This document shows, in pieces, positions 39,877 through 61,170 of a stretch of 64,000 nucleotides of DNA. The DNA lies in assembly GCF_013342145.1 (NCBI RefSeq), contig NZ_JABUQZ010000001.1, positions 2,046,001-2,110,000 of the forward strand, in the 5' to 3' direction. Both the position numbers and the translations under genes were made by a program. The stretch's first letter is position 1. Every line of letters begins with the position of its first letter. The stretch is from Haloterrigena gelatinilytica (GTDB lineage Archaea > Halobacteriota > Halobacteria > Halobacteriales > Natrialbaceae). Under the pieces are notes generated by a model. The model was not told the origin of the DNA and did not search any database. It worked only from the letters and a program-made list of their open reading frames with translations.

Positions 39877-40815
39877 TCAGCTGTCTCCGGGGGCGGTCGG
39901 GTCGCTCGAGTTTCGCGTTGCGGTGGCACTCGAGGTGCTCCGCTCGACGTTCCTCGAGGATGCCGTTTCGCCGGGGATCTCGGCGTCGGCCGGGAGGATC
40001 AGCCGGCGTTCGGTGTACTCGAGCCCGTTCTTGCGCTGGGTGCGTTTGCGGACGGCGAGACGATTCTTGGAGAGTTCGAGGGCCGCGTCGATCGTGCGGG
40101 AGACGAGTTTCTTCGCGTAGGTCTCGCTGATGCCCTCTTCCCGTCTGCGGATCCAGTGTTTCAGGTCGGAGGCGGCGACGTACTCCCGGACGGACTTGCA
40201 GCCGGTCGTCCAGGGATCGTCTCCCACTGTGGGATCGGCTCTGGCTTCCCAGAGTTTGGCGGCCAGTCGGGTGGGGAGGGCGTCGGCCGTCGCGCGGCGC
40301 ATGTCCGCGTCCATCCGGGCCAGTTGCTGGATCGGGAGGAGGTCCCCGTGGGCGAGGGCCACGTCGTCTCGGTTCAGCGGGTCCTCGTGGTCGGGCAGGC
40401 GGTAGTACGGTTCGTCGTCGGTCTTGGTGATCCGCTCGAGTCTGTTATCGGGGACGTCGATCTCGTGTTCGTCGACGTTGTCCGTGTGGAGGTGGGCGCC
40501 CTTCTCGAGTTCTCTCGTCTGGAGCTCCTCGATGCGGGCCTTGTTCGCGCCCGTGCGTTTGCGGGTGGCTTCGGTGATCGCCTCGAGGCGGTCGGTCTCA
40601 GTTTGTCGGGACTCGAGTTGGTCGGACTGGGTGTCGAGTCGCGTCTCGTGCGCGTCGAGCTCGTCGTCGTGGTCGTCCACGTCGGCCTCGAGATCGTCGA
40701 CTTGGCGCTCGAGGTCGGCGACGCGCTCCTCGAGTCGCTCGTTTCGCGCTCGGAGTTCGCGGAGTTCCTCGACGAGCGTCTCGAGGGTCGCGTTCTCGAG
40801 GGGCCGGTCAGTCAT
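39877..40815 (-). CDS. Coiled-coil haloarchaeal protein of unknown function
   Basis: A 312-residue protein. The first 110 residues form a long heptad-rich coiled coil (LVEELRELRARNERLEERVA, DLERQVDDLEADVDDHDDEL). The middle (DNRLERITKTDDEPYYRLPD, HEDPLNRDDVALAHGDLLPI, then QQLARMDADMRRATADALPT) looks like a structured domain, followed by a helical part with VREYVAASDLKHWIRRREEG and a disordered tail. Such genes are common on plasmids and in proviral regions of haloarchaea. A broken piece of the same family lies at 44090-44250. The start overlaps the next gene upstream by 8 bases, so it is second in a two-gene unit. Confidence 0.7.
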   Translation of the reverse strand: MTDRPLENATLETLVEELRELRARNERLEERVADLERQVDDLEADVDDHDDELDAHETRLDTQSDQLESRQTETDRLEAITEATRKRTGANKARIEELQTRELEKGAHLHTDNVDEHEIDVPDNRLERITKTDDEPYYRLPDHEDPLNRDDVALAHGDLLPIQQLARMDADMRRATADALPTRLAAKLWEARADPTVGDDPWTTGCKSVREYVAASDLKHWIRRREEGISETYAKKLVSRTIDAALELSKNRLAVRKRTQRKNGLEYTERRLILPADAEIPGETASSRNVERSTSSATATRNSSDPTAPGDS

Positions 40816-41188
40816 CGTCCGCCCCTCCGGCGTCGTCTGGGTCAGCGGATCTAGACTGTCGGCGGGCCGCCTCGAGTGCCGCTTCGGCGGGATCGCTGAC
40901 GATCGTGACGGCTTCGGCGTCGTCGATCGGCGGGCGGACGGTCTCGGGCGGGTCGGGGAGTTCTCGGTGGACGCACTCGAGTTCCGCCCGGAGCTCGCGG
41001 CAGTGGCGTCTGGCTGTTTTGCGGGTGGGCGGGTCTAATTCGGGGTCGTCGTTTATTGTGTCTAGGAGGTTCGTGGTGTGGGTGTAGAGGATCTCGAGGA
41101 TCGGTCGGTAGTCGGTATGGTCGGTCGTGCGCGGCGATGCATCCCGTCGGTCGGAGCTTTCATTGCCCCGCGAATCGTCGTTGCACAT
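40808..41188 (-). CDS. Small acidic helical protein, first of a two-gene unit
   Basis: A 126-residue protein, starting at the ATG at 41188. The first 25 residues are disordered (MCNDDSRGNESSDRRDASPR), followed by helices YRPILEILYTHTTNLLDTIN and KTARRHCRELRAELECVHRE and an acidic tail. The frame is open further upstream, but the first 26 codons lack character. It overlaps the coiled-coil gene by 8 bases. AT-rich sequence (CTATATGCTCCTCTGACATAAG) upstream may be its promoter. Function unknown. Confidence 0.6.
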   Translation of the reverse strand: MCNDDSRGNESSDRRDASPRTTDHTDYRPILEILYTHTTNLLDTINDDPELDPPTRKTARRHCRELRAELECVHRELPDPPETVRPPIDDAEAVTIVSDPAEAALEAARRQSRSADPDDAGGADDD

Positions 41189-41421
41189 GGCTTCCGTAGG
41201 TTGGTTACGGGAGCTCGTGCGGATCCGGTGGCCCAAACACCGGTCCGCGATTCTGCGACTCTGCACTCGCGAGAGTCGCGTATAGCTTCCGTAGCTACGA
41301 CTATATGCTCCTCTGACATAAGTCTTGACTACATACGGCGTTAGGTGTATTCGTCAAACAGGGCTAATCCCCTCGCGATGGTACTAATTTTTCTGCTCCG
41401 CCGGTAGCATACCGTGCAGAG

Positions 41422-41682
41422 ATGGTTGAGCGGGTCCCGTGGATGTCTCCCGTTGATTACGAAATTCTGCTCTTTTTCGACGAGCATCCGATTCAGGTCA
41501 CTCCGAAAGTAATCGCGGCGAACATCAACTACGATCGCCAATACGTCGGGAAGCGATGTAGCACGCTCGCTGATGCAGAGCTATTGGAATCCATCGGTAC
41601 TGGTCTCTATCAGCTTACGGACACTGGCTACGCGTATCTCGAAGGCGAACTCGACGTCAGTGAACTCGAGCCAGACGAATAG
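41422..41682 (+). CDS. PhiH1 repressor-like winged-helix protein
   Basis: An 86-residue DNA-binding protein: MVERVPWMSPVDYEILLFFD, EHPIQVTPKVIAANINYDRQ, then YVGKRCSTLADAELLESIGT, GLYQLTDTGYAYLEGELDV. The plan matches the small repressor-like wHTH proteins named after halovirus phiH1, often found in proviral and plasmid regions. Divergent from the coiled-coil operon, so it may control it. A hairpin array follows its stop. Confidence 0.75.
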   Translation: MVERVPWMSPVDYEILLFFDEHPIQVTPKVIAANINYDRQYVGKRCSTLADAELLESIGTGLYQLTDTGYAYLEGELDVSELEPDE

Positions 41683-41711
41683 ACTCAGAAAGCCACGACA
41701 CGCTCGAGGTC

Positions 41712-41825
41712 GTCGGCGCTTCGCGCCGACTGCTCGAGGAATCGAAGATTCCTCGTTGGCTGCGACTCGCTGTCGTTCGAGAGAGTGTCGCTCTCTCGTG
41801 ATGATGAAAGGCGTTCGCGCCTTTC
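41712..41825. repeat. Cluster of four short perfect hairpins
   Basis: Four hairpins follow one another: GTCGGCGC-TTC-GCGCCGAC (41712-41730), CGAGGAATC-GAA-GATTCCTCG (41735-41755), CGAGAGAG-TGTCG-CTCTCTCG (41778-41798) and GAAAGGCG-TTCG-CGCCTTTC (41806-41825). Stems are eight or nine pairs with no mismatch; loops are three to five bases. Each stem has a different sequence, so these are not copies. No protein frame fits the stretch. It starts 29 bases beyond the stop of the repressor-like gene. Confidence 0.6.
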
Positions 41826-42087
41826 GAACCACGCTCCTCGCTTCGCTGTGGTGCTTACATCGTCTCGCACCTCGAGCGCGTCACCCCTTCGAGTTCCACC
41901 CGCGGAAGTCTGGTTGGTAAGCTCTCGACAGTGAGAACAGCGTACTAGTACTAGAACCGGAACTAGTCTAGCTGTTCGACGATAACTCAGTTAACTATAG
42001 TCAGCTTTGGAGTTTCGTTCGTCGGAGATAACTATCAGATACAACAGTTGGCATCATTCGTATTAGGATGGTCGGCGAGGTAGCCGT

Positions 42088-42270
42088 ATGAGCCTCCGGA
42101 AGTGTCTCGGATTACGACTTCACCGGGCGCTCCTCTATTGGGGGGTCTTGAAGCATCCGTACGGTCGCGAGTACGCGAAAGAACGGTACACGCTACTTGG
42201 TGGAGAACGCGAAGAACATTCAATGGACGAAAACGGTGCTTCTGCGGACCTGAACGAGCCAGATGACTAA
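42088..42270 (+). CDS. Small protein of the YWG-LKHP family, copy 1
   Basis: A 60-residue protein: MSLRKCLGLRLHRALLYWGV, LKHPYGREYAKERYTLLGGE, REEHSMDENGASADLNEPDD. A clearly related protein lies at 61171-61356 (YWGLLKHPFGREYVREHY at the same position), so these are two members of one family. The basic N-terminal helix and aromatic core suggest a small membrane-peripheral or RNA-binding protein, but no function is known to me. It lies at the left edge of the AT-rich glycan island. Confidence 0.72.
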   Translation: MSLRKCLGLRLHRALLYWGVLKHPYGREYAKERYTLLGGEREEHSMDENGASADLNEPDD

Positions 42271-42443
42271 TCTCTCACAGGAAGCGTAGCTCTTACCAGT
42301 TGCCATCAACCTAATGTGAATCCGCTTCAGAGAAGCATGAAAGAGAACTTCGATATGTTAATTCGTATTATAAGTATCTTTGTAGATAATACCCCGTCAT
42401 AGAACCATTTGAACTAAGTTCTGAAAATGGGATAGTCTATATC

Positions 42444-43904
42444 ATGGCATCACTCCTTCGATCGATTATTTCTATTTTTTTCGGGAAGTTCGCTGGGCTG
42501 GTTATCAGTATACTGTTTACCCCTATTCTCGTCCGAGTTATCTCACAATCACAATACGGGGTATACGCGACCGTACTGGCCGGATTTAGCATCATCACAC
42601 TCATATCTAAGGGTGGGCTGTTCGATGCAACGAGGAAAGTAGTTGGAGATGGGAAAGACGACAGCCACAGAGTATCGAAAGTCGTCTCAATTTCGTTGCT
42701 GATCGGCATAGTCTACGCACTATTGGCCGGAATTGCTGTCCTGTTATCGTCGAAGTTGGGCGTCCTACCTGCAACGTATGTACCATACACTTGGGCAATT
42801 ATTCTGGTAGTCTTCTTCGGCAATGTGTATGCCGTCGCCAGAGCGGCTTTCTACGGTATACAGCGAGAGTCGGTCGCTGAAGCACTTAATATTGGTCGCC
42901 AACTGGTATACACTTCTGTTGCACTGCTATTGGCGTACATTGGGTATGATGTGGTCGGTGTATTTACCGGGTACGTATTTTCCTTCGTGCTCCTATGTAT
43001 CCTTGGATTGCTAGTTTTGCGGAGGTCTATCCCCTTCAAGATGCCATCGAGGGGTGACGTTTCCGAATATGGTCGAGAAATCGTCTCGTTTGGCGGATAC
43101 CAGCTCATCGGTGGTGTGAGTGCAATGTTGCTGTACAAGGTAGATCTTCTTCTCGTCGAATTCTTTCAGGGTCAGTCCTCGGCTGCCCTCTATCAGAGTG
43201 CTATCGTTCCAGCGGAGATGATTTGGTTCGTCCCATCGGTTATTCAGGCTGCGTTCTTACAGCACACGGCACACTTGTGGTCAAATGGTGATATTGATAC
43301 AATAAATAGCAATTTAAAAGAAGGATTTAAATATGCTGTTCTAGCATTATCACTATTTGGTATTGGTCTATTCACCCTTGCAGACCCGTTCCTCAGTATT
43401 TACTTTGGGCCGAGCTACTCCGCGTCATCTACGACATTGCAAATCCTGCTCATCGGGACGTTCTTTTTGGGGACCACCCGAGTCGTAACGCCGGTGCTGC
43501 ACGCGACAGGATGGGTTCGGGAATCCGAAGCTATCACCGTCGCAGGATTATGTATCAACTTGGTATTGAATGTTCTCCTAATACCTGAGTACGGCATCAT
43601 CGGTGCAGGTATCGGGACTGGTGTCTCCTATGCCGCGATATTCGCAGGGAACACCTTGCTCTGGAAGCGATCCCCACTTGAGATCGTTTCCCTCCGGTGG
43701 GTAGTCAGACTGATCGCAGTTCAACTGATATTCCTTACTGTGTTCTACGCGATTGTCTCGTCCTTCAGTTACTCGCCGCTGGTATCGATACTCGTATTCC
43801 CACCATTCGGACTTCTGACATTCTTGTCTTTGAACGTTACAGCGGGCTATATTCCGGTTGAACTGATCAGGAAGTTTTTGCACAAGGTACAACTAGACAG
43901 GTAA
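42444..43904 (+). CDS. Polysaccharide/oligosaccharide flippase (Wzx/MATE-like)
   Basis: A 486-residue polytopic membrane protein with about 12-14 helices, beginning LLRSIISIFFGKFAGLVISI and continuing through the typical repeated Gly/Ser/Asn-rich helices (IGGVSAMLLYKVDLLLVEFF near 220, WVRESEAITVAGLCINLVLNVLLIPEYGI near 360). Such proteins flip lipid-linked glycan units across the membrane for S-layer glycosylation or surface polymers. Codons are AT-rich compared with the core genome. The first gene of the island on the + strand; next to it is a broken non-island gene fragment. Confidence 0.85.
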   Translation: MASLLRSIISIFFGKFAGLVISILFTPILVRVISQSQYGVYATVLAGFSIITLISKGGLFDATRKVVGDGKDDSHRVSKVVSISLLIGIVYALLAGIAVLLSSKLGVLPATYVPYTWAIILVVFFGNVYAVARAAFYGIQRESVAEALNIGRQLVYTSVALLLAYIGYDVVGVFTGYVFSFVLLCILGLLVLRRSIPFKMPSRGDVSEYGREIVSFGGYQLIGGVSAMLLYKVDLLLVEFFQGQSSAALYQSAIVPAEMIWFVPSVIQAAFLQHTAHLWSNGDIDTINSNLKEGFKYAVLALSLFGIGLFTLADPFLSIYFGPSYSASSTTLQILLIGTFFLGTTRVVTPVLHATGWVRESEAITVAGLCINLVLNVLLIPEYGIIGAGIGTGVSYAAIFAGNTLLWKRSPLEIVSLRWVVRLIAVQLIFLTVFYAIVSSFSYSPLVSILVFPPFGLLTFLSLNVTAGYIPVELIRKFLHKVQLDR

Positions 43905-44089
43905 CCGATAACGAGGTCTACTGGTACGCCAGAGCGCCTCATCTGGGAATGGCATCCACTATGATTTAGTGATTTTCGTGAATTTGTAGGAGATGTACAG
44001 GTGGGATACTGCGGACGGACAGCCGACGGAGGCGGCAATCTCAGTCGTGTGACTTCCGTGGCGCCTCGGTGGTCTCCACGTCCTGCCGT

Positions 44090-44250
44090 GGCAACAAGCA
44101 CGAGCCCGCGAGTGCTGGATCGGCAGGAGTTCCCGTGGTCGAGTGCCACGTCGTCGGTTCTGTCTAGCGGATCCTCGTGTTCGGGGAGGCAGTAATAGGT
44201 CCCGCCGCTGATCTCGGTGATCCGCTCGAGTCGGTCGTCACGGATGTTAA
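44090..44250 (-). pseudogene. Broken fragment of the coiled-coil gene family
   Basis: On the minus strand this stretch translates as INIRDDRLERITEISGGTYY and CLPEHEDPLDRTDDVALDHG, matching the middle of the protein at 39877-40815 (IDVPDNRLERITKTDDEPYY, RLPDHEDPLNRDDVALAHG). The match continues as LLPIQ only after a frameshift, and no start or end is present. It is GC-rich inside an AT-rich region. Its right end is fused to the 3' end of the next glycosyltransferase: that gene's stop codon (TAA at 44247-44249) lies in the fragment. Confidence 0.72.
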
Positions 44251-45434
44251 TCTTGTTTCCCAAATCTATCGAAAACTTCAGTAAGTTCATCCACAGAATC
44301 AGAAATATCAAACTTATTTCGGACAGTGTTACGCCCATTCTTGGCGAGTTCACGTCGTCTATCTGGGTTATCTAGTAGCTCAGCAATTGTATCTGCAAGT
44401 GCGGTTGAGTTCTTCGGTTCAACAAGAAGGCCATCTTCACCGCTTGTAATCAATTCAGGAATAGCCGAAACCGATGTAGAAACACATGCTGTTTCGGTTG
44501 CCATAGCCTCCTTAAGCGCCACTGGAGCTACATCACGGTCCCCGTTTGAAGCAATGACACACGGGAGAATGAATAGTTCTGCATCATGCAATTCTGATCG
44601 TAATTCATCATCTGACACGTGGCCCAAAAACTTCACGTGATCTTCTATTCCGAGTTCACAAATTCGAGTTTGAACGGATTCCTTTCGTTCTCCAGTACCG
44701 ATAATATGATATTCTATATTATAGCCCTGTTCGATAAGTTCGGCTACTGCCTCGATAGCATACTTGTACCCTTTTTTTTCTACAAGGCGGGCAACCGTAA
44801 GCAGACGCCCAGACACACACCCGTCAGAAGGCTCAAACTTTTCAACATCTGTCGTTGCTGGAATTACCGAGATATCCGTCTTAACTTCGATTTCCTCACG
44901 AAGGTACCGTTTGTTATACTTGGAGGGAACGATCACGTGATTGAAGCGCGAGAGTACTTGTGATAGGCGCTGAACACTAGGTGGTGAGAAAATTTCATGT
45001 GCATGTGCAGTAACAGTACAAGGTATTCCATGGTACGTAGCCGCGTAGGAAGCTGAGAGTCGGTCTGGGGTAGCGAAATGCGCGTGTATCAAATCAACCC
45101 CACCAACTCTTTCAACCACTTCACTTATTTGTTTTCCAAGATGTAACGCATATATGTGGTAAGATGGTTTGTCAATGAATAGAGTTTGTCTTAATAATGA
45201 TTTGTTCAATATATCTTTCGAGCAGACATATGGAAGTGAAGTGAGAGCTGGTTCCTCACCATAGTAAACTGTTATACCCATCTTTTGTATTTCCTCATGT
45301 GTAGCCTCTTCATCTGGCCGTTGTTTTGCGAATACAGTTATATCATAGCCTCGCTTGTCAAGTTCATATAATTCGTTTATGATAAAGCTCTCAGAAATTT
45401 TCGGGAACTGATTGACGACATAGAGTAATTCCAT
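44247..45434 (-). CDS. Family 4 glycosyltransferase
   Basis: A 395-residue GT-B enzyme. The N-terminal domain opens LLYVVNQFPKISESFIINEL; the sugar-nucleotide domain has GRLLTVARLVEKKGYKYAIEAV near 207, VKFLGHVSDDELRSELHDAELF near 266 and the family Glu in VAPVALKEAMATETACVSTS near 300. It transfers a sugar to a lipid-linked acceptor at the cytoplasmic side. It is AT-rich and has AAA/ATA-rich codons. The last four residues (GKQD) and the stop are encoded by an unrelated GC-rich fragment, so the natural 3' end has been changed. Confidence 0.82.
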   Translation of the reverse strand: MELLYVVNQFPKISESFIINELYELDKRGYDITVFAKQRPDEEATHEEIQKMGITVYYGEEPALTSLPYVCSKDILNKSLLRQTLFIDKPSYHIYALHLGKQISEVVERVGGVDLIHAHFATPDRLSASYAATYHGIPCTVTAHAHEIFSPPSVQRLSQVLSRFNHVIVPSKYNKRYLREEIEVKTDISVIPATTDVEKFEPSDGCVSGRLLTVARLVEKKGYKYAIEAVAELIEQGYNIEYHIIGTGERKESVQTRICELGIEDHVKFLGHVSDDELRSELHDAELFILPCVIASNGDRDVAPVALKEAMATETACVSTSVSAIPELITSGEDGLLVEPKNSTALADTIAELLDNPDRRRELAKNGRNTVRNKFDISDSVDELTEVFDRFGKQD

Positions 45435-45503
45435 GATGAACCAATCTATTTCGCTCCATATGTTTGTTTTGATGAGGAGGATATTTTCCGTGCGATCAAC
45501 TGT

Positions 45504-46412
45504 TTAAATGCTATTAGAGATCTTGGCCCGTAACTTAAATAAATGAGTCCTCAAAGGGTTTGGAGCTATACTCAGAAGTAAATATAACATTGTTTGATAA
45601 TCTTGTGGATTATTCTGTAATGAAGAAAGAAGATAGGAAGCTCCTTCTAAATTACGCCCCGACAAGGTAGCGAAAAGTCCTAAATGTCGGTATTGTTGAC
45701 TCAGTGCTGGTGGATTTGATTCAAGAGCAGACCAATGTTTCTCAACTAGTCGTTTTTGACCGCTGTATTTCCGTTCCATGTTACTGCTTATCCGTTCATC
45801 ATGCCCCTCATAAGAAATTGCAAGAGATTTAGGTACTGCAGCAACCTTATATTCTTTCGCAATACGAATCCACAGGTCTATATCTTGAGAGCTTTTGAAT
45901 TCTGGGTCAAATAGACCTATCTTACTAAAACATTCTCTACGAATGAGTGGTGTTTCACTGGGTATTATATTCTCATATAATAATTTGTCATAGATATCCC
46001 CTTCTTGAGATGGTATGTATGTTTTGACTACCTCATTATCGTGCACAATATCTCTTCCTGTATAGACAAGACCGAATTCGTTTCCAACGTCTTTAAACCG
46101 GTCAATTTGGGCCTCTAATTTTGTGGGTTTCCATGCATCATCATCGTCAAGAAGAGCAATATATTTGCCTTCTGAGTTTAATATACCTGTATTTCTAGCT
46201 ATAGGAGCCCCTTGGTTTTCCCTATGTTTTATGTATTTTATATCATCAATATCCGGTATTACATTTTCGATGTCGGATTCGGGATCATCATCGACAACGA
46301 TTAACTCCCAATCTTTGTATGTTTGGTTCTCTACAGATCTAACCGCTCTTAATAGTTTCTCTGGTCGCTTGTATGTGGGAATTACAACACTAACTGTTGT
46401 ATTTTTTACCAT
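45504..46412 (-). CDS. Family 2 glycosyltransferase
   Basis: A 302-residue GT-A enzyme: VSVVIPTYKRPEKLLRAVRS at the start, ELIVVDDDPESD near 36, ENQGAPIARNTGIL near 64 and the DxD metal site IALLDDDDAW near 85. The C-terminal third is helical and without membrane segments. It adds a sugar to the glycan assembled in this locus; which one is not known. It shares the AT-rich codon use of the island. Same strand as the preceding family 4 enzyme. Confidence 0.82.
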   Translation of the reverse strand: MVKNTTVSVVIPTYKRPEKLLRAVRSVENQTYKDWELIVVDDDPESDIENVIPDIDDIKYIKHRENQGAPIARNTGILNSEGKYIALLDDDDAWKPTKLEAQIDRFKDVGNEFGLVYTGRDIVHDNEVVKTYIPSQEGDIYDKLLYENIIPSETPLIRRECFSKIGLFDPEFKSSQDIDLWIRIAKEYKVAAVPKSLAISYEGHDERISSNMERKYSGQKRLVEKHWSALESNPPALSQQYRHLGLFATLSGRNLEGASYLLSSLQNNPQDYQTMLYLLLSIAPNPLRTHLFKLRAKISNSI

Positions 46413-46680
46413 TTGTAGGGCTCCTCCAGTATGTTAAATTTCTGAATGGTAGAGAACTTGATTAGCAAACAAGCGGTTCTTCTTCCAATTCATCTTGCTT
46501 CACTCTTCGTTTTTGGCAATTGTAGTTCTTCAGTTATAAATATTTCTGCATCTGTGAGGACACTGAATTCTATCTTCTTATTTATATCGAATTATTGCCA
46601 AATAGTTTCTGGTTTTGACTAGAAGAGGAGATCATCGGATCTTCTATACCGATAAGAATTTTACTGAGACATCCAATGAT
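46413..46680. promoter_or_regulatory. AT-rich divergent promoter region
   Basis: A 268-base gap between the divergent family 2 glycosyltransferase and the sulfatase-like gene. It contains several TATA-like stretches, for example TTATAAATATTTCTGC near 46535 and CTTATTTATATCG near 46577. Promoters for both directions are expected here. No other feature seen. Confidence 0.45.
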
Positions 46681-48156
46681 ATGGATGAAATGGAATGCCC
46701 GAATATACTATTTGTTGTAATGGATACAGCGAGAGCGAAAAACAGTCTTCCATCCATAAATGAAGAGGTTGTACCGAATTTAGCAGAACTTGCTAATTCA
46801 GGTGTAGAATTCACGTCTACCATATCAAACGCTCCGTGGACGTTACCTTCCCACGCATCAATCTTCACTGGAAAGCATACATCAAACCACAATACGAATG
46901 CAGGGAACAAAAACTTTGATCCAGATGATCCATGTCTACCGGAATTGCTAAATAAAAATGGATACACAACTGTTGCTTTTTCAAATAACAGTTGGATAAG
47001 TCCTGAATTCGGATTTGATAGAGGGTTTGATTATTTTTACAAAGGGTGGGAATTGATACCAGCTGGTGAAGACCTAGCAAGAGCGATGCGGGAGAATGAT
47101 ACACCAGCAAATCAAATCCGTTCTATACTCACATCTACGGAATTCAAACACCTTCCGTCATCAATTCTCAACTCACTCTTTGCGAAATTCCTACGGAAAA
47201 AGTATGATTATGGAGCATACCTCACAAATTGGAAGATCAAGAGATGGCTCAATAAAGAGCGTAATAAAGAAGACCCTTTCTTTATGTTTATTAATTATCT
47301 TGAACCACATTTAGAATATAACCCCCCAAACAGATTTTGTGAGTTTTTAGATGATGATATCAGCCCTTCAGAGGCTAAAGAAGTGAACCAAGATGCATGG
47401 GGGTATGTTAGTGGTGAGATTGAAATGCATGAAGAAGACTTTGAGATTCTAGAAGACCTATATAAGTCAGAAATAAAATATTTGGACCATCGTATTGGCA
47501 ATTTACTAGATCATCTTTCTGAAAGAGGTATCCTTGAGGAGACTCTCGTTGTTGTTGTTGGAGATCATGGAGAAAACATTGGAGATCACAATCTGATGGA
47601 TCACCAATACAGTTTATATGATACGCTTGTACATGTGCCACTAGTTATAAATGGGCCAGAGATCTTTACCGGTGGGAAGAAAATATCACATCTTGTTGAA
47701 TCACGCGATCTTTTCCCAACAATATTAGAGACTGCTGGAGCAGAAGTCCCAAAGCGGGACGGAATTTCTCAGAGTAGTCTTGAAGAAGCTATTCATGAAG
47801 AAAATGATGATGGCGCATATGCTATTTCAGAGTATTTAGTTCCCCAACCAGCAGTTGATACACTCCGTAACCGAGCGCCTGATTCCACTATAGTTGACAA
47901 ATATGATCGGGCACTGCGGGCTATTCGGACAACAGAATGGAAGTATATCGTGGGATCAGATGGAACTAAGGAACTATATAATATCGAATCTGATCCTGGC
48001 GAACTGAATGATGTGGCTGATTCAAACCCAGAAGTAGTAGAGAGACTACATGAAAAAATACCTGATGAATATGGAACTCTTGAACGGGGAAACTCAGATG
48101 AAGAACAGTTAGATGCAGCCGCTCAACAAAGACTCGAGGACCTTGGCTATATATAA
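46681..48156 (+). CDS. Sulfatase-superfamily enzyme (alkaline phosphatase fold), threonine nucleophile
   Basis: A 491-residue protein starting at the ATG at 46681 (a TTG at 46615 is in frame but weaker). It begins MDEMECPNILFVVMDTARAK, with the metal Asp in VVMDTARA. The catalytic region reads NAPWTLPSHASIFTGKHTSN, so where sulfatases have Cys or Ser before x-P-x-R there is Thr and no Arg, which points to a phosphatase or phosphotransferase-like activity rather than formylglycine sulfatase. The second metal site is VVVVGDHGENIGDH near 315. The end contains RAIRTTEWKYIV and ELYNIESDPGELNDVAD. No signal peptide. It may modify a surface glycan. Confidence 0.8.
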   Translation: MDEMECPNILFVVMDTARAKNSLPSINEEVVPNLAELANSGVEFTSTISNAPWTLPSHASIFTGKHTSNHNTNAGNKNFDPDDPCLPELLNKNGYTTVAFSNNSWISPEFGFDRGFDYFYKGWELIPAGEDLARAMRENDTPANQIRSILTSTEFKHLPSSILNSLFAKFLRKKYDYGAYLTNWKIKRWLNKERNKEDPFFMFINYLEPHLEYNPPNRFCEFLDDDISPSEAKEVNQDAWGYVSGEIEMHEEDFEILEDLYKSEIKYLDHRIGNLLDHLSERGILEETLVVVVGDHGENIGDHNLMDHQYSLYDTLVHVPLVINGPEIFTGGKKISHLVESRDLFPTILETAGAEVPKRDGISQSSLEEAIHEENDDGAYAISEYLVPQPAVDTLRNRAPDSTIVDKYDRALRAIRTTEWKYIVGSDGTKELYNIESDPGELNDVADSNPEVVERLHEKIPDEYGTLERGNSDEEQLDAAAQQRLEDLGYI

Positions 48157-48160
48157 TCCA

Positions 48161-49288
48161 ATGTCAAATAAAATATTACTTCGATCGCATACGTCGCTAC
48201 GAGAGGACGATGTTTCTGGTGGTGCAGCACGGTTAATGAAAAACCTGGCTCGAGCACTTTCAGAAACAGGTTGGGATGTTCATATTCTTTCCCCTGCGTC
48301 ACTGACTAATGAGTACGATAACCAATCAGATATTAGTTATATTGAATTCGATTATGGGAATCCCCAATCATCTCTTGAGACAATCATTAATACTGTTCGT
48401 GGCGTATCTACATATCGAGAAACTATTAAGGATGAAAACTATAACATTATTTTAGATGACATTTCTCATTTCCCATATTATCCTATGCACCTCTCTCACC
48501 CAGAGGAGACCGTCAATGCTGTTTTCATGCATACTGCTTTTTTTGGAGCTGCTAGGGAATATGTTGGACCTCTCCGAGGGACTGTAATAGAGTTTATCGA
48601 TAGAACATTACCGTATTTAAATAATCCGGAGATTATATGTGCTGGAAGTGGAACGGCTGATAGGATTCATAGAAAGACTGGCTACTCTTCCACTCATATC
48701 CTTCACCCTTGTATCGATATGGATAAGTTTGAATACAATTTTATGCCTGAATCCAGTACTATTCTGTATCTTGGCCGACTTGGTGAACGGAAAAATGTGT
48801 CCTGTTTGCTCCGTGCATGGCGTATTATTGAAAATAAGACAGAACGTGATGTCTCGTTAGTGATTGCCGGCTCAGGACCTAAGATGGACGAACTCCGTCG
48901 TCTATCAGTAGATCTCGGTCTAACTAACATTGATTTCTTAGGCTATGTTGAGGAAAGCGAAAAGCAGCGCCTATTTGAAGAATCACTTTTGTATGTCCTT
49001 CCTTCGAAGATGGAAGGCTATGTGACGACTGGAATAGAAGCTTTAGCGACTGGAACACCAGTAGTTGGATCTGACACGTTTGGAATCAACGACTATATAC
49101 AGCATGGTGAGACTGGTTATCTTTTCCCAGTCAATGATCATGAAGAATTGGCGCGTCAGGTGCTAGATCTTGTTAGCAATCCCAAGCAAATGCGTCCGAT
49201 TGCAGAAAGAGGTCGCGAGTTAGCTTTGCAGCATAGCTATGAGGAATTCAAGTTACAAGCTGATAACTTGTTCTCAGAAATAATATAA
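48161..49288 (+). CDS. Family 4 glycosyltransferase
   Basis: A 375-residue GT-B enzyme starting at the ATG at 48161, 4 bases after the sulfatase-like stop. The N-terminal domain has DDVSGGAARLMKNLARALSE, the C-terminal nucleotide-binding domain has ILYLGRLGERKNVSCLLRAW near 207, NIDFLGYVEESEKQRLFEES near 263 and the family Glu in KMEGYVTTGIEALATGTPVV near 290. AT-rich codons. It lies in one operon with the sulfatase-like gene. The sugar is not known. Confidence 0.82.
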   Translation: MSNKILLRSHTSLREDDVSGGAARLMKNLARALSETGWDVHILSPASLTNEYDNQSDISYIEFDYGNPQSSLETIINTVRGVSTYRETIKDENYNIILDDISHFPYYPMHLSHPEETVNAVFMHTAFFGAAREYVGPLRGTVIEFIDRTLPYLNNPEIICAGSGTADRIHRKTGYSSTHILHPCIDMDKFEYNFMPESSTILYLGRLGERKNVSCLLRAWRIIENKTERDVSLVIAGSGPKMDELRRLSVDLGLTNIDFLGYVEESEKQRLFEESLLYVLPSKMEGYVTTGIEALATGTPVVGSDTFGINDYIQHGETGYLFPVNDHEELARQVLDLVSNPKQMRPIAERGRELALQHSYEEFKLQADNLFSEII

Positions 49289-49306
49289 TGCCTATTGAAT
49301 ACTATT

Positions 49307-50356
49307 TTAACATTCTGGATTTGTGATTGATCTCACTATATCAATCATATCCTGAGCAGGTTTGTCCCAAGTTTGCTTTGAAGCAGCTTTAATACAGTCT
49401 TCAGAATTAAGGTTTTTGGCTTTCATAACTCCTCGCTCAATTTCAGAAGTGACAACACATGCTGATGATGGGAGAACCTCAACAGCTCCGCAATTTTTAG
49501 TTGCGACAACAGGGGTTCCACAAGCTACTGATTCTAAAATTACGTTTCCAAATGCCTCCCAGCCAGCAGGGTGTATGGTTACGGCAGCGTTAGTGTAAAC
49601 TTGCCGTAATTCATCGCTTGATAAACGGCCTAATGCATCAACGTGAGGTGAATTAACCTCATCAGGCCCAACAATAATAACGTCTTCTTTAGTTTGTCTC
49701 GCGAAAGAAATAACATGTGAGAGCCCCTTCCTTTCAGACCCTCCCACGAATAAAATATAGTCTTCCTTATTATATCCACTATCTGGATAAAAAACACTAG
49801 TATCAATACCGTTGTGTGAGACGATTGACGGAGTCGTGATATTATATGCTGATTCCCATCCAGCACGGCAGACAGCGCTGTTATATATGAGACAATCAGC
49901 TGCTGCAATCGAACGACGATCAACAATCGTTCGGAAGGGACCCATCAACCGATCACCAATTGTTTCAAGAAACGAAAGACCATTACGAATGTATTCTTTT
50001 GTCGCTTCGTAACAATCATGTCTCTTTGAGACGGTTGGAAGGGGAAGCTCAAACGGGACCCCCGTATGTGTGATACACGCATCGAATGGATCAAAATCAA
50101 AAGATTGGAGGTAGTTACGAAGTGCAATCGGAAATAGGACATAATATCCTTTTCTATATCCAAACTGAACAGTATGAACTTCATTCGCTGGTGGCTTCTT
50201 TCCAGTTAATTCGTGAGAGCTTTGTGGACATGTTCCCGTAATTACTGTAATTTCATGACCTTTATCGACGACTTCGTTATAAAGATTACATATGTGGTGA
50301 GATATGCCACCTAAGACATATCCTGGCCACTCACGTGTTATTATTAACAGGTGCAT
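49307..50356 (-). CDS. Family 4 glycosyltransferase
   Basis: A 349-residue GT-B enzyme. It opens MHLLIITREWPGYVLGGISH and has YILFVGGSERKGLSHVISFA near 207 and AGWEAFGNVILESVACGTPV near 285, with the family Glu in the second. The first domain is Cys/Tyr-rich (HDCYEATKEYIRNGLSFLET). It converges on the preceding gene with 18 bases between stops. AT-rich codons fit the island. Product unknown. Confidence 0.82.
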   Translation of the reverse strand: MHLLIITREWPGYVLGGISHHICNLYNEVVDKGHEITVITGTCPQSSHELTGKKPPANEVHTVQFGYRKGYYVLFPIALRNYLQSFDFDPFDACITHTGVPFELPLPTVSKRHDCYEATKEYIRNGLSFLETIGDRLMGPFRTIVDRRSIAAADCLIYNSAVCRAGWESAYNITTPSIVSHNGIDTSVFYPDSGYNKEDYILFVGGSERKGLSHVISFARQTKEDVIIVGPDEVNSPHVDALGRLSSDELRQVYTNAAVTIHPAGWEAFGNVILESVACGTPVVATKNCGAVEVLPSSACVVTSEIERGVMKAKNLNSEDCIKAASKQTWDKPAQDMIDIVRSITNPEC

Positions 50357-50511
50357 GGATCAATATGAATGGGTTTGAACTTCCACTTGCTTATTTCTAA
50401 TCAAGGGCTTGGGATAGTCAATATGTTTGTCTAATAGTCGTGTGTGGTATAAAACTAGGTTCTACGGATAGAACGAAAAGACAATTAGTTCGCGCTCTTC
50501 TAGCGATACCA

Positions 50512-51651
50512 ATGAACGTTGCCTTTGTCTCTAACGTTGTTTACCCATTTGTGAAGGGAGGTGCTGAAAAACGGATCCACGAGATCGGGAAACGTCTTGT
50601 GGCAAATGGACATAGCGTTACCATTTATGGACGACATTTTTGGGAGGGTCCTGAAGTAATCACAAATAATGGAATTATTCTCCGTGCAGTAGCACCAAGT
50701 ACTGAACTCTATACCGGAGAGCGCCGCTCGATTACGGAAGCTCTCGAGTTTTCGACTCGTCTCATTCCAACGCTTCGCCACCATATTGATGATCATGACC
50801 TTGTGGTTGCATCTCTATTTCCATATTTCCCTGTCCTTGCTTCTAAATTCACTACTCTCGGAACCAATACCCCCCTGATAACGACTTGGCACGAGGTTTG
50901 GCTCGACTACTGGGAGGATTATCTTGAACACCTCGCACTATTTGGAAAAGGTGTCGAATACATAACCGCTAAAACCCCTCACTGTTCGATCGCCGTTTCG
51001 AGCGTCACGGCGGACCGCCTTACTGAAATCGGACCGTCGCGAGACGAGATCGAGATCGTCCCCAATGGCATCGATGTCGACCAGATCAAATCAACACAAC
51101 CCGTCAACGACGGCTTCGATATTCTGTATGCGGGTCGACTCATCCAAGACAAGAACGTCGATCTCCTTCTTGAGGCGTTCGATCAAGTCGCCGAGACCGC
51201 GCCGAACATCACGCTGGGCATCATCGGTGATGGGCCAGAACGAGACTCTCTCAAGCGACAAGCCCAAAACCTGGACCACGCCGACCGAGTGACAATGCTC
51301 GGCTTCCTCAAGGAATACGATGATGTTATCGCACACATGCGCGCAGCAGACATCTTCGCCTCACCGTCTACCCGCGAAGGCTTTGGCATCACGTTCGCAG
51401 AAGCAATGGCTGCGGATTGTACCGTCATCGCGGCAGAGCATCCTGAATCCGCCGCTTCCGAAGTGATCGATGACGCAGGATTCCTCGCGTCACCGACAGT
51501 TGACGACATAACCCATGTTCTAGAGCGCGCACTCTCCGGTGATCGACCGAATACGGAGCCGACGACTCGAGCCCAACGATATGATTGGAATACCGTGGCT
51601 GAACAGGCAGAGCAATGTTATCAACAAGCAATCAATGGTGATTGGAAGTGA
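50512..51651 (+). CDS. Family 4 glycosyltransferase, mosaic base composition
   Basis: A 379-residue GT-B enzyme starting at the ATG at 50512: MNVAFVSNVVYPFVKGGAEK, then FDILYAGRLIQDKNVDLLLE near 195, RVTMLGFLKEYDDVIAHMRA near 257 and the Glu of STREGFGITFAEAMAADCTV near 285. The first third is AT-rich like the island, but from about 50980 the gene becomes GC-richer, close to core genome style (GATCGCCGTTTCGAGCGTC). The swap lies inside one intact reading frame. It is divergent from the previous enzyme with 155 bases between starts. Confidence 0.82.
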   Translation: MNVAFVSNVVYPFVKGGAEKRIHEIGKRLVANGHSVTIYGRHFWEGPEVITNNGIILRAVAPSTELYTGERRSITEALEFSTRLIPTLRHHIDDHDLVVASLFPYFPVLASKFTTLGTNTPLITTWHEVWLDYWEDYLEHLALFGKGVEYITAKTPHCSIAVSSVTADRLTEIGPSRDEIEIVPNGIDVDQIKSTQPVNDGFDILYAGRLIQDKNVDLLLEAFDQVAETAPNITLGIIGDGPERDSLKRQAQNLDHADRVTMLGFLKEYDDVIAHMRAADIFASPSTREGFGITFAEAMAADCTVIAAEHPESAASEVIDDAGFLASPTVDDITHVLERALSGDRPNTEPTTRAQRYDWNTVAEQAEQCYQQAINGDWK

Positions 51652-55814: not shown

Positions 55815-56540
55815 TCAGCTTCTAACTTCAAGATCAGATAATCGTTCTTCTGCTTCTTCTCGATCCTCTGGATAGCCGACGTCGATCCGCCATCCCTCGA
55901 GTCCGATCGCATCGATAGTCCGTCCGCTCTGAATCAGTAAGTCGATTGCCTCGCTGATCTCGTACTCGCCGCGGTTGGACGGCTGTACTAAATGACACGC
56001 GTGGAAGATGGCCGGCGTAAACGTGTAGAACCCGGTCATCACCAGATTCGACGGCGGATCGTCGGGCTTCTCGACGACGTCGGTAATCTCGCCGAATTTA
56101 TTCGTATCACAGACACCATACCGGTCGGCCTCGTCCCACGGGACTTCTTCGACCAGGAACGCGGCGTCGGCACGATCTTCCTGTTGCCGGCGCACGACAT
56201 CCCCGAGGTTCGCCTGAAACACGTTGTCGCCGAGCATCAGCATGAAGTCGTCGTCGATGTGCTCCTCGACGCTCAACAAGGCGTGGGCGAGCCCCTTTTG
56301 TTCGCGCTGGTGGGTATACGTAATCGGGACGCCTTCGTACTCGTCGCCGTAGTGATCGATGATCTTCTCCTTCAGATAGCCGACGACGACGATCAGCTCG
56401 TCCGCGCCGAGCGACACCAGTTGATCGAAACAGTGGGTGAGAATCGGTTTCTCGTCGACCTCGACCATTCCCTTGGGTTTGTCCTCGGTGAGCGGTCGAA
56501 GCCGCGTTCCCTCGCCGGCCGCGAGTACGACTGCTTTCAT
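55815..56540 (-). CDS. aglF: Sugar-1-phosphate nucleotidyltransferase (AglF-like)
   Basis: A 241-residue enzyme activating a hexose-1-phosphate with UTP or dTTP. The nucleotide loop is KAVVLAAGEGTRLRPLTEDKPKG (2-24), the metal Asp is in MLMLGDNVF near 97, and the family landmarks EKPDDPPSNLVMTGFYTFT and WRIDVGYPEDREEAEERL follow. It is closest in pattern to haloarchaeal AglF of the N-glycosylation pathway. Most of the gene is GC-rich, but the last 18 codons (55815-55868) are AT-rich, so the island boundary lies inside its 3' end. Divergent from the other nucleotidyltransferase gene. Confidence 0.85.
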   Translation of the reverse strand: MKAVVLAAGEGTRLRPLTEDKPKGMVEVDEKPILTHCFDQLVSLGADELIVVVGYLKEKIIDHYGDEYEGVPITYTHQREQKGLAHALLSVEEHIDDDFMLMLGDNVFQANLGDVVRRQQEDRADAAFLVEEVPWDEADRYGVCDTNKFGEITDVVEKPDDPPSNLVMTGFYTFTPAIFHACHLVQPSNRGEYEISEAIDLLIQSGRTIDAIGLEGWRIDVGYPEDREEAEERLSDLEVRS

Positions 56541-56696
56541 ACGAATGAGACATCATTCTACCGCTTAGTAACGTTTTGCAATCGGTACGATAGAAGGACA
56601 CGATCGGGTCACTTTGACGGCGGTACTAGGACGATCGCTGGAGACCAACGTATATCCAATCGGAGATGGATTTCACGCGATGGAGAATCCCCACCC

Positions 56697-57680
56697 ATGG
56701 ACGCAATCGTACTCGCAGGCGGCTACGCGACGCGACTCTGGCCGATCACGAAACACCGGCCCAAGATGTTCCTCCCGGTCGGCGACACGACCGTGATCGA
56801 CGGCGTGCTCGAGGACCTCGAGACCGACACTAGAATCGACGACGTCTACGTCTCGACGAACGAACGCTTCGCGGACGCGTTCGAGGACCACCTCGAGACC
56901 AACGAGTACCACAAACCCCAGCTCTCGATCGAAGACACGACCGACGAGGACGAGAAGTTCGGCGTCATCGGCGCCCTCGCCCAGCTCGTCGACCGCGAAA
57001 ACCTCGAGGACGACACGATCGTCATCGCGGGCGATAACCTCCTCAGCTTCGGCGTCAGCGAGTTCGTCGACTTCTTCCAGAAACGACAGACCCCAACGCT
57101 CGCCGCCTATGACGTCGGCGATTACGACCGCGCGACGTCCTACGGCGTGCTCGAGCTCGAGGACGACGGCCGCGAGATCGTCGCCTTCGAGGAGAAGCCC
57201 GACGACCCGCCGAGCACGCTCGTGTCGGTCGCCTGCTACGGATTCCGCGCGGCGGACCTCGACTTACTCGAGACGTATCTGGACGGGGAGAACAATCCCG
57301 ACGAGCCGGGCTGGTTCGTCCAGTGGCTCGTCGACCGGGAGCGCGTCGACGCGTTCACGTTCGACGGCGCCTGGTACGACATCGGGACGCCCGAGAGTTA
57401 CCTCGACGCCGTCGCCTGGCGGTTCGACGGCGACAGCGCGATCCACCCCGACGCGTCGCTCGAGGGGACGACGATCGGCCCGAACGTGCACGTCATGGCG
57501 GGCGCGCAGGTCACCGACGCGACCCTCCGGGACTGCGTCGTCTTCCCCGACGCCACGATCGCCGACTGCACGATCGAACGATCGGTAATCGATACGGAGA
57601 CGGAGATCCGCGCGACGGACGTCGAGTCCGCGCTCGTCGGGCCGGAGATGACGCTCGAGGAAACCGTTTCCACTCGCTAA
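56697..57680 (+). CDS. Sugar-1-phosphate nucleotidyltransferase with beta-helix C-terminus
   Basis: A 327-residue enzyme with MDAIVLAGGYATRLWPITKH at its start, then DTIVIAGDNLLSFGVSEFVD near 102, EEKPDDPPSTLVSVACYGFR near 167, AWYDIGTPESYLDAV near 222 and a C-terminal left-handed beta helix (LEGTTIGPNVHVMAGAQVTD). It makes a nucleotide-activated sugar. Its start ATG at 56697 is the first with protein character, although the frame stays open from 55992. It is 156 bases from the AglF-like gene start in the opposite direction. The donor differs, as the two are only distantly alike. Confidence 0.82.
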   Translation: MDAIVLAGGYATRLWPITKHRPKMFLPVGDTTVIDGVLEDLETDTRIDDVYVSTNERFADAFEDHLETNEYHKPQLSIEDTTDEDEKFGVIGALAQLVDRENLEDDTIVIAGDNLLSFGVSEFVDFFQKRQTPTLAAYDVGDYDRATSYGVLELEDDGREIVAFEEKPDDPPSTLVSVACYGFRAADLDLLETYLDGENNPDEPGWFVQWLVDRERVDAFTFDGAWYDIGTPESYLDAVAWRFDGDSAIHPDASLEGTTIGPNVHVMAGAQVTDATLRDCVVFPDATIADCTIERSVIDTETEIRATDVESALVGPEMTLEETVSTR

Positions 57681-57954
57681 CGAAGACGGGGCGGACTCGA
57701 GGACGGAGCGAATCGTGACCTCGGGTAAGCGCCGCAGAATCGACACGGTAGACGAGTGGAGATCGAGTGGTTCGAACGGGTGGGGATCCGTGAACGCGTC
57801 GGAACCGAGCCGGCGAGCCGTCGCATAACCGACCCGTGAGACGGCGTAGGGTCGTCGAATCGATTACACTAGTACCTCGAGTATCCAACTAGTATCTCGA
57901 ACGTACCTTACGCCCTCCTCGAGTACACCTCACGCATTCGACTGCCACCAGCGA
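57681..57954. repeat. Gap with two ACTAGTAYCTCGA direct repeats
   Basis: In this gene-free gap, ACTAGTACCTCGA (57868-57880) and ACTAGTATCTCGA (57888-57900) lie 20 bases apart. CTAG is normally rare in haloarchaeal DNA, so close pairs stand out. The repeats lie 55 bases from the tRNA-like sequence. Role unknown. Confidence 0.4.
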
Positions 57955-58054
57955 TGGGATGCGGAAATTCGAACCCCGGGCTTGCTGACCGGCGCTGTAC
58001 GACCGACTGTTGGCAACGGTTCAGCCGTTCTACCGGACTAAACTACATACTCCC
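57955..58054 (-). tRNA. Decayed tRNA-like sequence (pseudo-tRNA), isotype unclear
   Basis: On the minus strand this reads GTATGTAGTTTAGTCCGGTA, AACGGCTGAACCGTTGCC, then GTACAGCGCCGGTCAGCAAG and CGGGGTTCGAATTTCCGCAT. It shares the D-arm, anticodon-stem (GCTGA/TCAGC) and T-loop (TTCGAAT) with the tRNA-like gene at 61403-61550 but has an insert of only about 25 bases between the stem halves, an imperfect T-stem with two G-T pairs and a broken acceptor stem. It is therefore a decayed or partial copy. Confidence 0.55.
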
Positions 58055-58110
58055 GACTCGCGCGAGAACCAGAACGAACGCGAAAAGTCATCGACCGACG
58101 CGCTCGAGCG

Positions 58111-59325
58111 CTACCGGTCGACGGAACTCAGGAAGAACGACGAGAACACGGTCTGGAGGCCGATGACGATCGCGGTAAAGGCGACCAGTGCTCCCATCGT
58201 GAACTCGAGCGAGGCGAACCCGTTCGAGACCCACTGGTAGACCAGGCCCGCGGCGTACAGTCCGCCCGCACCGAACACCAGCAGACCCGCGGTCGCGCCG
58301 TGCTCGAGCGACAGCGATCCGATCACGCGTTCCGTGATCGGGTCCTCGGGCTTCTGAATCGGGTCGCTGGTGACGGCGGCGAACACGCCGAGACTCGCGA
58401 CCTGATACCCGACGATCGTCAGCAGGCTGCCGGCGATCATCGAGTGAATTCCGAGCGACGCCTCACCGAGCGACGCGCCGCTGTACGCGATGCCCATGAT
58501 GGCCATCCCGAGCAGGCTCATCACCATCCCGGGAGCGGAGAACAGGAAGCCCGGCGCGTTGACCAACATGAACCGGACGTGGCGCCAGCCGTCCCGGAAG
58601 CTCTCGAGGGTCTCCTCGCCCTCGCGCTCGTGGTAGATGATCGGCGTCTCCTCGATCACGAGGTCCTTCGCGCCGGCCTCCATGATCATCTCCGAGGCGA
58701 ACTCCATTCCGGTCGTCTCGAGGTCCATCTCGTCGAGGGCCTGCCGGCGGAACACGCGGAACCCGCTGTGGGCGTCGCTCACGCCCGCCCGGTAGAACAG
58801 GTTCAGGAACTTCGTCAACAACGGATTGCCGATGTACTGGTGGAGCGTCGGCATCGCGCCGGGCCTGATCTCGCCCTCGAGGCGACTCCCCATCACCATG
58901 TCCGCGCCGGTCTCCTCGAGGTGGCTGAGCAGGCGCGGGATGTCCTTGAAGTCGTAGGTCGTGTCGGCGTCGCCCATCGCGATGTACTGGCCCCGAGCGC
59001 GCTCGAAGGCGTAGCGGTACGCGTAGCCGTACCCCGGCTGGTCGGGTTCGACGACGATCGCGCCCATCTCGCGGGCGATCTCGGGCGTTCGATCCGTCGA
59101 ACTGTCGCTGATGATGATCTCCGTCGGTAGCTGTAATTCCTCGACGGCCGACTTGATCCAGCCGATACAGGTCTCGATTCCCTCCTCCTCGTTTAACGTC
59201 GGCATCACGACGGACAGTTCCGGTTTAATGTCGCTGTCGCGACTAACCAGGAGTTCGTCCGCCGATCGATGCTCGAGGACCTGCTCCGCCGAAGCCGAAC
59301 CGTCCGAATGTGATTTTGAAGCCAT
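58111..59325 (-). CDS. Membrane-anchored family 2 glycosyltransferase (dolichol-phosphate sugar synthase type, AglJ-like)
   Basis: A 404-residue GT2 enzyme with membrane tail. The catalytic domain is ELSVVMPTLNEEEGIETCIG near 36, IIISDSSTDRTPEIAREM near 70, the DxD site AMGDADTTYDFKDIPRLL near 115 and GSRLEGEIRPGAMPTLHQYI near 142. After about residue 240 four hydrophobic segments follow (FLFSAPGMVMSLLGMAIMGIAY, MIAGSLLTIVGYQVASLGVF and two more). Enzymes of this kind put a hexose onto dolichol phosphate at the start of N-glycan assembly. It lies alone with a 400-base gap on each side. Confidence 0.82.
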   Translation of the reverse strand: MASKSHSDGSASAEQVLEHRSADELLVSRDSDIKPELSVVMPTLNEEEGIETCIGWIKSAVEELQLPTEIIISDSSTDRTPEIAREMGAIVVEPDQPGYGYAYRYAFERARGQYIAMGDADTTYDFKDIPRLLSHLEETGADMVMGSRLEGEIRPGAMPTLHQYIGNPLLTKFLNLFYRAGVSDAHSGFRVFRRQALDEMDLETTGMEFASEMIMEAGAKDLVIEETPIIYHEREGEETLESFRDGWRHVRFMLVNAPGFLFSAPGMVMSLLGMAIMGIAYSGASLGEASLGIHSMIAGSLLTIVGYQVASLGVFAAVTSDPIQKPEDPITERVIGSLSLEHGATAGLLVFGAGGLYAAGLVYQWVSNGFASLEFTMGALVAFTAIVIGLQTVFSSFFLSSVDR

Positions 59326-59779
59326 GGGTGAGTCCGTCTCAACGCCTCCGCATGCTCCGTCTAGTACAGAACCGGCCTCTTAACAGTAGCTATTCATATT
59401 TCACAAAAAATAACTAGGCTAGTGTTGAGTACTAGCGCACTAATCGCTCTCGCGACAATATGGCACTGCGGTAACATCTCGATAGAGGCGTTAAAGGCGG
59501 TTATATATCCCTTTGAAGTGAGAAGGAAGCCATATCAATAAGTATGCTGATAAAAGTATCGGAACGGGAGTAACGAGTTAGTGAATACCTCAAACGAGAA
59601 TGATTACGGGCGACTAGTCCGGAAGGTAGTCGGTCCGCGGCCGGGAAAAGTGAATATATCCGTATCGAGGTGTTTCAAAATCACAATAGGTGTAAATAAA
59701 ACAAATAGTCGGGAACAAGCGGATACTATCCGGGTTAACCCATGGATTTAACACGTCAAGTTGCGATGTGTATGATAAT
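59326..59779. other. AT-rich gap, 454 bases
   Basis: No frame has protein character. The first part (TATTCATATTTCACAAAAAATAACTAGG, 59391 on, read in two pieces) is AT-rich and probably carries the promoter of the minus-strand AglJ-like gene. Near 59411-59438 several CTAG words occur. The last 60 bases hold the promoter of the zinc-finger gene. Nothing else seen. Confidence 0.45.
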
Positions 59780-59947
59780 ATGCAAGAAGCCGTAGACGGA
59801 ACCGTCGCCGTGCATCCGGTAGTCGACGCGCTCGAGGGCAAACGCTGTACGTTCTGCGACGAGGGAGAGCTCGTGCAGGGAGTCTACAAGGGGAAGAACG
59901 CTGTAATCTGCGAGTCCTGCGAGACGCCCACCGCACAGCTCTGGTAA
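59780..59947 (+). CDS. HVO_A0556-like small zinc-finger protein, 55 residues
   Basis: The ATG at 59780 opens a 55-residue frame. It reads MQEAVDGTVAVHPVVDALEG, then KRCTFCDEGELVQGVYKGKN and AVICESCETPTAQLW. Two CxxC knuckles (CTFC near 23, CESC near 44) form one zinc site. The pattern resembles a known family of haloarchaeal zinc-finger microproteins (prototype believed to be HVO_A0556). Role unknown. TATA-like TATGATAATATG covers the start. Confidence 0.72.
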   Translation: MQEAVDGTVAVHPVVDALEGKRCTFCDEGELVQGVYKGKNAVICESCETPTAQLW

Positions 59948-60084
59948 CGCGCGCCGCCAGTCCCCGCATCTTCTTTCGTCCTAATGAAGCACTACTCGTA
60001 GCGAGGCCCCCCGTCAGTACGAACGAGACTCGCGGACGGGGAAAGACCGTAGCGTTCTCGTAGGTGGCTACCAGTTGTGCTGAC

Positions 60085-61005
60085 ATGCAGAACCAGCGCG
60101 TCCTGATAACGGGCGGGGCAGGGTTTATCGGCTCCAATTTGGCGAACCACCTCGCCGAAGACAACGACGTCATCGCGATCGACGACGAGTACCTCGGCAC
60201 GGCCGAGAACCTCGAGGACGATGTCGACTACCGCAACCGAAGCGTCCTCGAGGACGACCTCCCGACGGACGTCGACGTCGTCTTCCACCTCGCCGCGCTC
60301 TCGTCGTACGCGATGCACGAGGAGGATCCCACGACGGGCGCCCGCGTGAACGTCGAGGGGTTCGTCAACGTCGTCGATCAGGCCCGCCAGGACGGCTGCG
60401 ACACCGTCGTCTACGCCTCGACCTCCTCCATCTACGGGAGCCAGACCGAACCCTCGCCGGAGGACATGCCGGTCGCGGTCAACACCGGCTACGAGGCCTC
60501 CAAGCTCGCCCGCGAGCGCTACGGCGAGTACTTCGCGAACCACTACGACATGGACGTCGCCGGGATGCGCTTCTTCTCGGTCTACCAGGGGTACGGCGGC
60601 GCCGAGGAACACAAGGGCGAGTACGCCAACGTGATCGCGCAGTTCGCCGACGACCTCGCCGGCGGCGACGCGCCCGCCCTCTACGGCGACGGCACCCAGA
60701 CGCGGGACTTCACCCACGTCGACGACATCGTCCGCGGCCTCGAGCTCGCGGCCGACCACGAACTCACCGGCGTCTACAACCTCGGCACCGGCGACGCCTA
60801 CAGCTTCAACGAGCTCGTCGAGATGCTCAACGACGAACTCGGCACCGACATCGATCCCGAGTACGTCGAGAACCCGATCCCCGAGGACGTCTACGTCCAC
60901 GACACCTGCGCCGACTCGAGCAAGATGCGCGAGGAAACCGGCTGGGAACCCCAGATCTCCCTCGAGGAGGGCGTCGAACAGGTCTGCGAACCCTACACCG
61001 AGTAG
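60085..61005 (+). CDS. NAD-dependent nucleotide-sugar epimerase/dehydratase
   Basis: A 306-residue SDR enzyme starting at the ATG at 60085. The NAD motif is VLITGGAGFIGSNLANHL, and further landmarks are VVFHLAALSSYAMHEEDP, STSSIYGSQTEPSPEDMPV near 113, the catalytic GYEASKLARERYGEYF near 135 (YxxxK is YEASK) and GDGTQTRDFTHVDDIVRGLE near 205. It interconverts or dehydrates a nucleotide sugar, such as UDP-glucose to UDP-galactose or a related sugar. The preceding GTG at 60064 is less likely. It serves the same pathway as the nucleotidyltransferases. Confidence 0.85.
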   Translation: MQNQRVLITGGAGFIGSNLANHLAEDNDVIAIDDEYLGTAENLEDDVDYRNRSVLEDDLPTDVDVVFHLAALSSYAMHEEDPTTGARVNVEGFVNVVDQARQDGCDTVVYASTSSIYGSQTEPSPEDMPVAVNTGYEASKLARERYGEYFANHYDMDVAGMRFFSVYQGYGGAEEHKGEYANVIAQFADDLAGGDAPALYGDGTQTRDFTHVDDIVRGLELAADHELTGVYNLGTGDAYSFNELVEMLNDELGTDIDPEYVENPIPEDVYVHDTCADSSKMREETGWEPQISLEEGVEQVCEPYTE

Positions 61006-61170
61006 CACTGCTCTGTACGACACGATACCGACCCACGTCGCCGACCGACACCGATAGCACGATCTCCTGTTGAACCTCGCTGCACGACCGGAGACGTTCA
61101 CGACTCACCGTTCGATACGCGGCCCGAAACGCTGCGAACCGCTAAGTCCTTCCCGTCACCTCGTAGGGCC

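Follow-up and report, generated by a model that had tools for sequence, protein, structure and literature searches.

The window, that is, the whole stretch of 64,000 nucleotides analysed here (G000:C1:2046001-2110000), belongs to a 4.55-Mb genome, and its locus was compared among six Haloterrigena genomes. Judging from its sequence, the locus is a hypervariable surface-glycan island in which a coiled-coil (CC) gene forms the left border; the preliminary description had placed this gene simply outside the island. The features of the locus are listed below.

39877-40815, minus strand: intact border gene of 312 aa, from the uncharacterized CC family
40808-41266, minus strand: 152-aa ORF overlapping the CC start, a conserved partner (21 of 80 CC loci)
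41422-41682, plus strand: divergent winged-helix regulator (phrog_2440); this family is linked to CC, on its upstream side, in 51 of 80 loci
41759-42309: conserved left edge with a 60-aa ORF (42088-42270), 78-79% identical to the congeners G001, G002 and G003
42311-43981, plus strand: flippase module (gene 42444-43904), 93% identical to a module elsewhere in the G003 island
43982-44108: non-coding scrap X; homology to G003:C1:218664-218853 extends over 43921-44108
44109-44256, minus strand: CC fragment, codons ~117-164, with one extra codon, a 1-nt frameshift and both ends cut
44247-45434, minus strand: GT4-family glycosyltransferase, full length (395 aa), its stop probably inside fossil DNA
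50440-51651, plus strand: glycosyltransferase whose homologue lies directly at the left edge in G001, G003 and G005
55843-61013: right edge and flank (nucleotidyltransferase and following genes), common to G003 from 55843 and to G002 from 56558

G002 shares positions 16915-41248 and 41759-42309 of the left flank as well as 56558-61013 of the right flank. Between these same flanks, G002 carries 10 kb of cargo, consisting of a flippase, two sulfatases, a GT2 and a GT4, which gives only short nucleotide matches to the island of the window. The locus therefore has the traits of a replacement island, namely the same position with conserved flanks, and different genes of similar function. The sequence is ~95% identical with G002 at 17-29 kb but only ~80% where the island starts on the left, and the rise in divergence toward this edge is led by third codon positions in the CC gene; on the right side of the island, no clear divergence peak was observed. 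A second GC dip (0.53) is present to the right of the island, at 59001-60000.

The end of the left edge (42296-42309) corresponds to the last ~5 codons (..DGNW stop) of a resident glycosyltransferase gene that has been lost. An intact glycosyltransferase gene directly follows the left edge in G001, G003 and G005, and G002 contains a longer stub of it. As the glycosyltransferase gene at 50440-51651 is reversed with respect to G001, G003 and G005, we considered a simple inversion of 42310-51648. A single inversion fails, because the left edge keeps its own glycosyltransferase end and the gene at 50440-51651 has its own stop (..NGDWK stop). The 60-aa ORF of the left edge is conserved; in G003, the flippase module is flanked on either side by a further copy of this stretch (237780-237902 and 240347-240468).

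The CC border gene is intact in three of the Haloterrigena genomes, with orthologues in the corresponding position in G001 (92% aa identity) and G002 (87%), whereas in G003, G004 and G005 only scraps are left, at this locus or near glycan genes. In G003, it is cut to codons 179-269, and the left edge follows without a gap; codons 262-301 are what is left in G005; and in G004, the right-edge nucleotidyltransferase has a piece of CC immediately beside it. Given these remnants, CC scraps are usual at this locus in the genomes compared.

The CC fragment and its breakpoints

A fragment of ~150 bp at 44109-44256 (minus strand) shows homology to the intact CC gene over codons ~117-164. Smith-Waterman alignment of the nucleotide sequences pairs 44259-44113 with CC nucleotides ~345-491 at a score of 122; the scores of 500 dinucleotide shuffles had a mean of 23 and a maximum of 36, and chance similarity was hence ruled out. 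With blastn, the identity is 76.6% over 145 nt (E 2.4e-24), and a six-frame search of the genome found the fragment independently (aa 117-159, E 2e-8), together with exactly two other CC matches, the intact gene and a copy on contig 2 (60%). The fragment that the preliminary description had located at 44090-44250 is thus real, with similarity that is significant at the nucleotide level, and the intact 312-aa CC ORF was also confirmed. The nucleotide alignment that it had proposed for finding the breakpoints places both ends within a few bases and refines the limits to about 44104-44112 on the left and 44256-44260 on the right.

Besides one extra codon, the fragment has a 1-nt deletion that breaks the frame, and both gene ends are missing. 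It contains no open full-length CC reading frame; only ~48 of the 312 codons are left. Over 40 codons, its mismatches are distributed 11/6/11 among the three codon positions, whereas the substitutions between the window CC gene and its orthologues in G001 and G002 are mostly at third positions (18/8/40 and 27/16/53, respectively). This spread fits decay as non-coding DNA, and suggests that the fragment stopped coding.

On the glycosyltransferase side, the likelihood of CC homology peaks for a breakpoint at 44256-44260. The glycosyltransferase stop codon (TAA, 44249-44247) lies inside this homology, which is favoured by ~3-4 nats over a breakpoint excluding the stop. Therefore, the stop codon probably lies in CC-derived DNA that is read in another frame; the earlier claim that the fragment supplies the stop is probable in this sense, without being certain. 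On the other side, the CC homology runs out at about 44113, possibly 44104, and at 44108 a second homology starts, that of scrap X, of which 123 bp (43986-44108) are 82% identical to G003:C1:218729-218853, a stretch without an assigned gene. Because the end of the flippase module at 43981, X and the CC homology nearly abut, the gap between the flippase and glycosyltransferase genes can be read as module end, X and CC fragment with almost no unassigned base. X itself was identified by no family, and a plasmid search with the gap as query gave matches to the CC part only and none to X. An inverted motif, CCAGA..TCTGG, is present after the flippase gene at 43921-43945; it is also found after the G003 flippase and recurs at G003:C1:218664.

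Together, the fragment (60% GC) and X (64% GC) constitute a GC-rich remnant of ~270 bp between AT-rich imported genes, the flippase at 48% and the glycosyltransferase at 43% GC, in agreement with the AT-rich surroundings reported before. The remnant is situated in the 3'-3' convergent gap between these two genes.

Lineage of the fragment and integrity of the glycosyltransferase

In a tree of 24 sequences and 143 columns, in which the fragment is on a long branch, it joins from outside (support 88/79) the clade formed by the window CC gene and those of G001 and G002 (97/88), apart from the contig 2 copy of its own genome. This position makes the fragment a sister lineage of the neighbouring CC gene, which would have diverged before the neighbour split from its Haloterrigena orthologues. 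The fragment also keeps a codon that is missing in the window CC gene and its G001 and G002 orthologues (LNR-DDVALAHG against LDRTDDVALDHG); across the CC family this codon is variable, as many other members have it and some do not. In addition, two bases specific to the window CC gene are not found in the fragment. The identity of 77% between fragment and CC gene over 145 nt is far under the 88-89% observed between species at this locus, and the two are therefore not a recently recombined pair. Hence, the fragment is not, as had been proposed, a broken copy of the neighbouring gene, and the two segments are not recent recombination partners.

The glycosyltransferase had been described as having lost its original end. 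Its Pfam domains are complete (PF00534, 18-171 of 172; PF13439, 6-169 of 170). Homologues sharing 67% to 27% identity with it can be aligned as far as residues 388-395 (of 395) and end 0-6 residues beyond the alignment; the closest one (67%) stops two residues earlier than the window protein, and 9 of 9 end within a few residues of it. The enzyme is full length with a normal C-terminus and has lost nothing; the fossil can supply only its last few residues. This corrects the claim of a damaged enzyme.

Origin of the remnant

We consider it likely that the fragment stems from an earlier edge of the island and stayed behind as debris when the island contents were replaced. The CC gene, its partner ORF and the divergent winged-helix regulator stand at the left island border, and the genus has seen repeated exchange of the cargo between this border and the right flank. 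In this scenario, a border bearing the sister-lineage CC gene may have been broken, and codons ~117-164 of the broken gene would have been joined at one end to the last glycosyltransferase codons and at the other to the GC-rich scrap X. Left of the remnant, one now finds the flippase module and the intact border of today. The older CC lineage may have been either local or brought in with cargo. The remnant would have survived because a 3'-3' convergent gap needs no promoter and because the glycosyltransferase stayed full length. We infer this order of events, with homologous recombination in the flanks as the motor. An old edge is supported by island contents that differ between congeners while the flanks are kept, and the drop in identity toward the left edge is the boundary signature described for replacement islands (PMC4033161). 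An intact older arrangement, with CC next to this glycosyltransferase or X next to CC, was found in none of the genomes. The earlier view of a recombination scar that records the assembly of the island is borne out by the fragment and the mosaic borders.

Alternatively, the CC gene could have been duplicated in tandem, like the members of the CC arrays in other Natrialbaceae, with the fragment as the decayed duplicate; the border segment and the flippase would then have been inserted between the two. At several loci, two or more CC copies, complete or truncated, indeed lie within 2-8 kb and point the same way, and the fragment is oriented like the intact gene and has border CC genes as its closest relatives. 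However, none of the congeners examined has a CC array at the locus, and the duplicate must predate the split of the window genome, G001 and G002, yet it is absent from G001 and G002, making this origin rather unlikely. It is very improbable that the remnant has a present function, for example in terminating transcription of the two convergent genes or in offering a target for later exchanges: its location coincides with the convergent gap, and the inverted motif is common to the flippase end and X, but it is not conserved, since X is present in only one other of 125 family genomes and has no Rfam family above threshold, and no congener compared has a CC piece at this position. Hardly credible is the proposal that recombination brought a copy of the neighbouring gene into the island and thereby shortened the glycosyltransferase. 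The neighbour is the best nucleotide match (76.6%) among all homologues compared, but the lineage, the extra codon, the unshared window-specific bases and the normal length of the enzyme contradict it.

With debris of an earlier edge as the preferred reading, the locus is an ordinary replacement-type island with one resolved scar. Surface-glycan loci are thought to be swapped under virus pressure, and the scar described here is resolved to the base and placed in a lineage within a haloarchaeal surface-glycan island. Replacement flexible genomic islands (PMC4033161), among them GI1, the cell-wall island of Haloquadratum walsbyi (PMC4535781), are alike in having the same location, related surface functions and different genes between relatives, and in a divergence that rises towards the edge, as observed here on the left side. 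No clear marks of illegitimate recombination have been observed at the boundaries of replacement islands (PMC4033161). Unlike in those islands, the border gene family has left identifiable fossils inside the present one, and one junction is resolved to a few bases. The variable N-glycosylation clusters of Haloferax (PMC5867893) are also similar, being haloarchaeal glycan clusters that differ between close relatives, with recombination. They differ in genus and locus and in that no CC/winged-helix border is described in the available part of that account; the oligosaccharyltransferase AglB is not among the genes identified here.

The CC family and its border module

The CC family is widespread in Natrialbaceae. 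Of 61 related genomes sampled, 28 carry it, and it occurs on chromosomes as well as on plasmids. Sequence searches against Pfam, PHROGs, NCBIfam and PDB for a CC function gave coiled-coil noise only, and no CC gene was found in phage records. The AlphaFold model (mean pLDDT 66.5) shows a long coiled coil and a low-confidence winged-helix-like C-terminus, and has no Foldseek match at E<=0.001.

Of 69 CC loci, 26 have glycan-type gene clusters upstream of CC and 8 have them downstream, and for the flippase alone the numbers are 12 and 3, respectively. As these clusters were picked by eye after viewing and the loci are not independent, the upstream bias is only a lead. Glycan genes were present within 8 kb of 7 of 11 partial-CC sites versus 4 of 20 control stretches (Fisher p 0.023), in a small test in which three sites are from the same genus and some query proteins came from CC neighbourhoods, favouring a positive result. 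Fragments of the CC family could serve to trace old island edges. A more far-reaching idea, that the winged-helix gene, the partner ORF and CC constitute a dedicated border element of haloarchaeal surface-glycan islands, joining in or regulating cargo exchange, with fossils marking old edges across Natrialbaceae, is in our opinion quite unlikely. The recurrent CC/winged-helix border module is nevertheless the more interesting by-product of this analysis and deserves its own study.

The border winged-helix regulator at 41422-41682 has a relative with 65% identity on contig 3 of its own genome, whereas its positional counterparts in G001 and G002 are only 37-44% identical; the regulator, too, has thus apparently been exchanged. 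L126, a contig whose label assigns it to a Syntrophomonadaceae metagenome assembly, bears a typical haloarchaeal CC gene and is probably misbinned. Several additional CC copies, complete or truncated, accompany the CC gene within 2-8 kb and on the same strand at L096, L104, L079, L100, L113, G025:C15 and G010:C1, and at such multi-copy loci each copy is accompanied by small variable partner genes.
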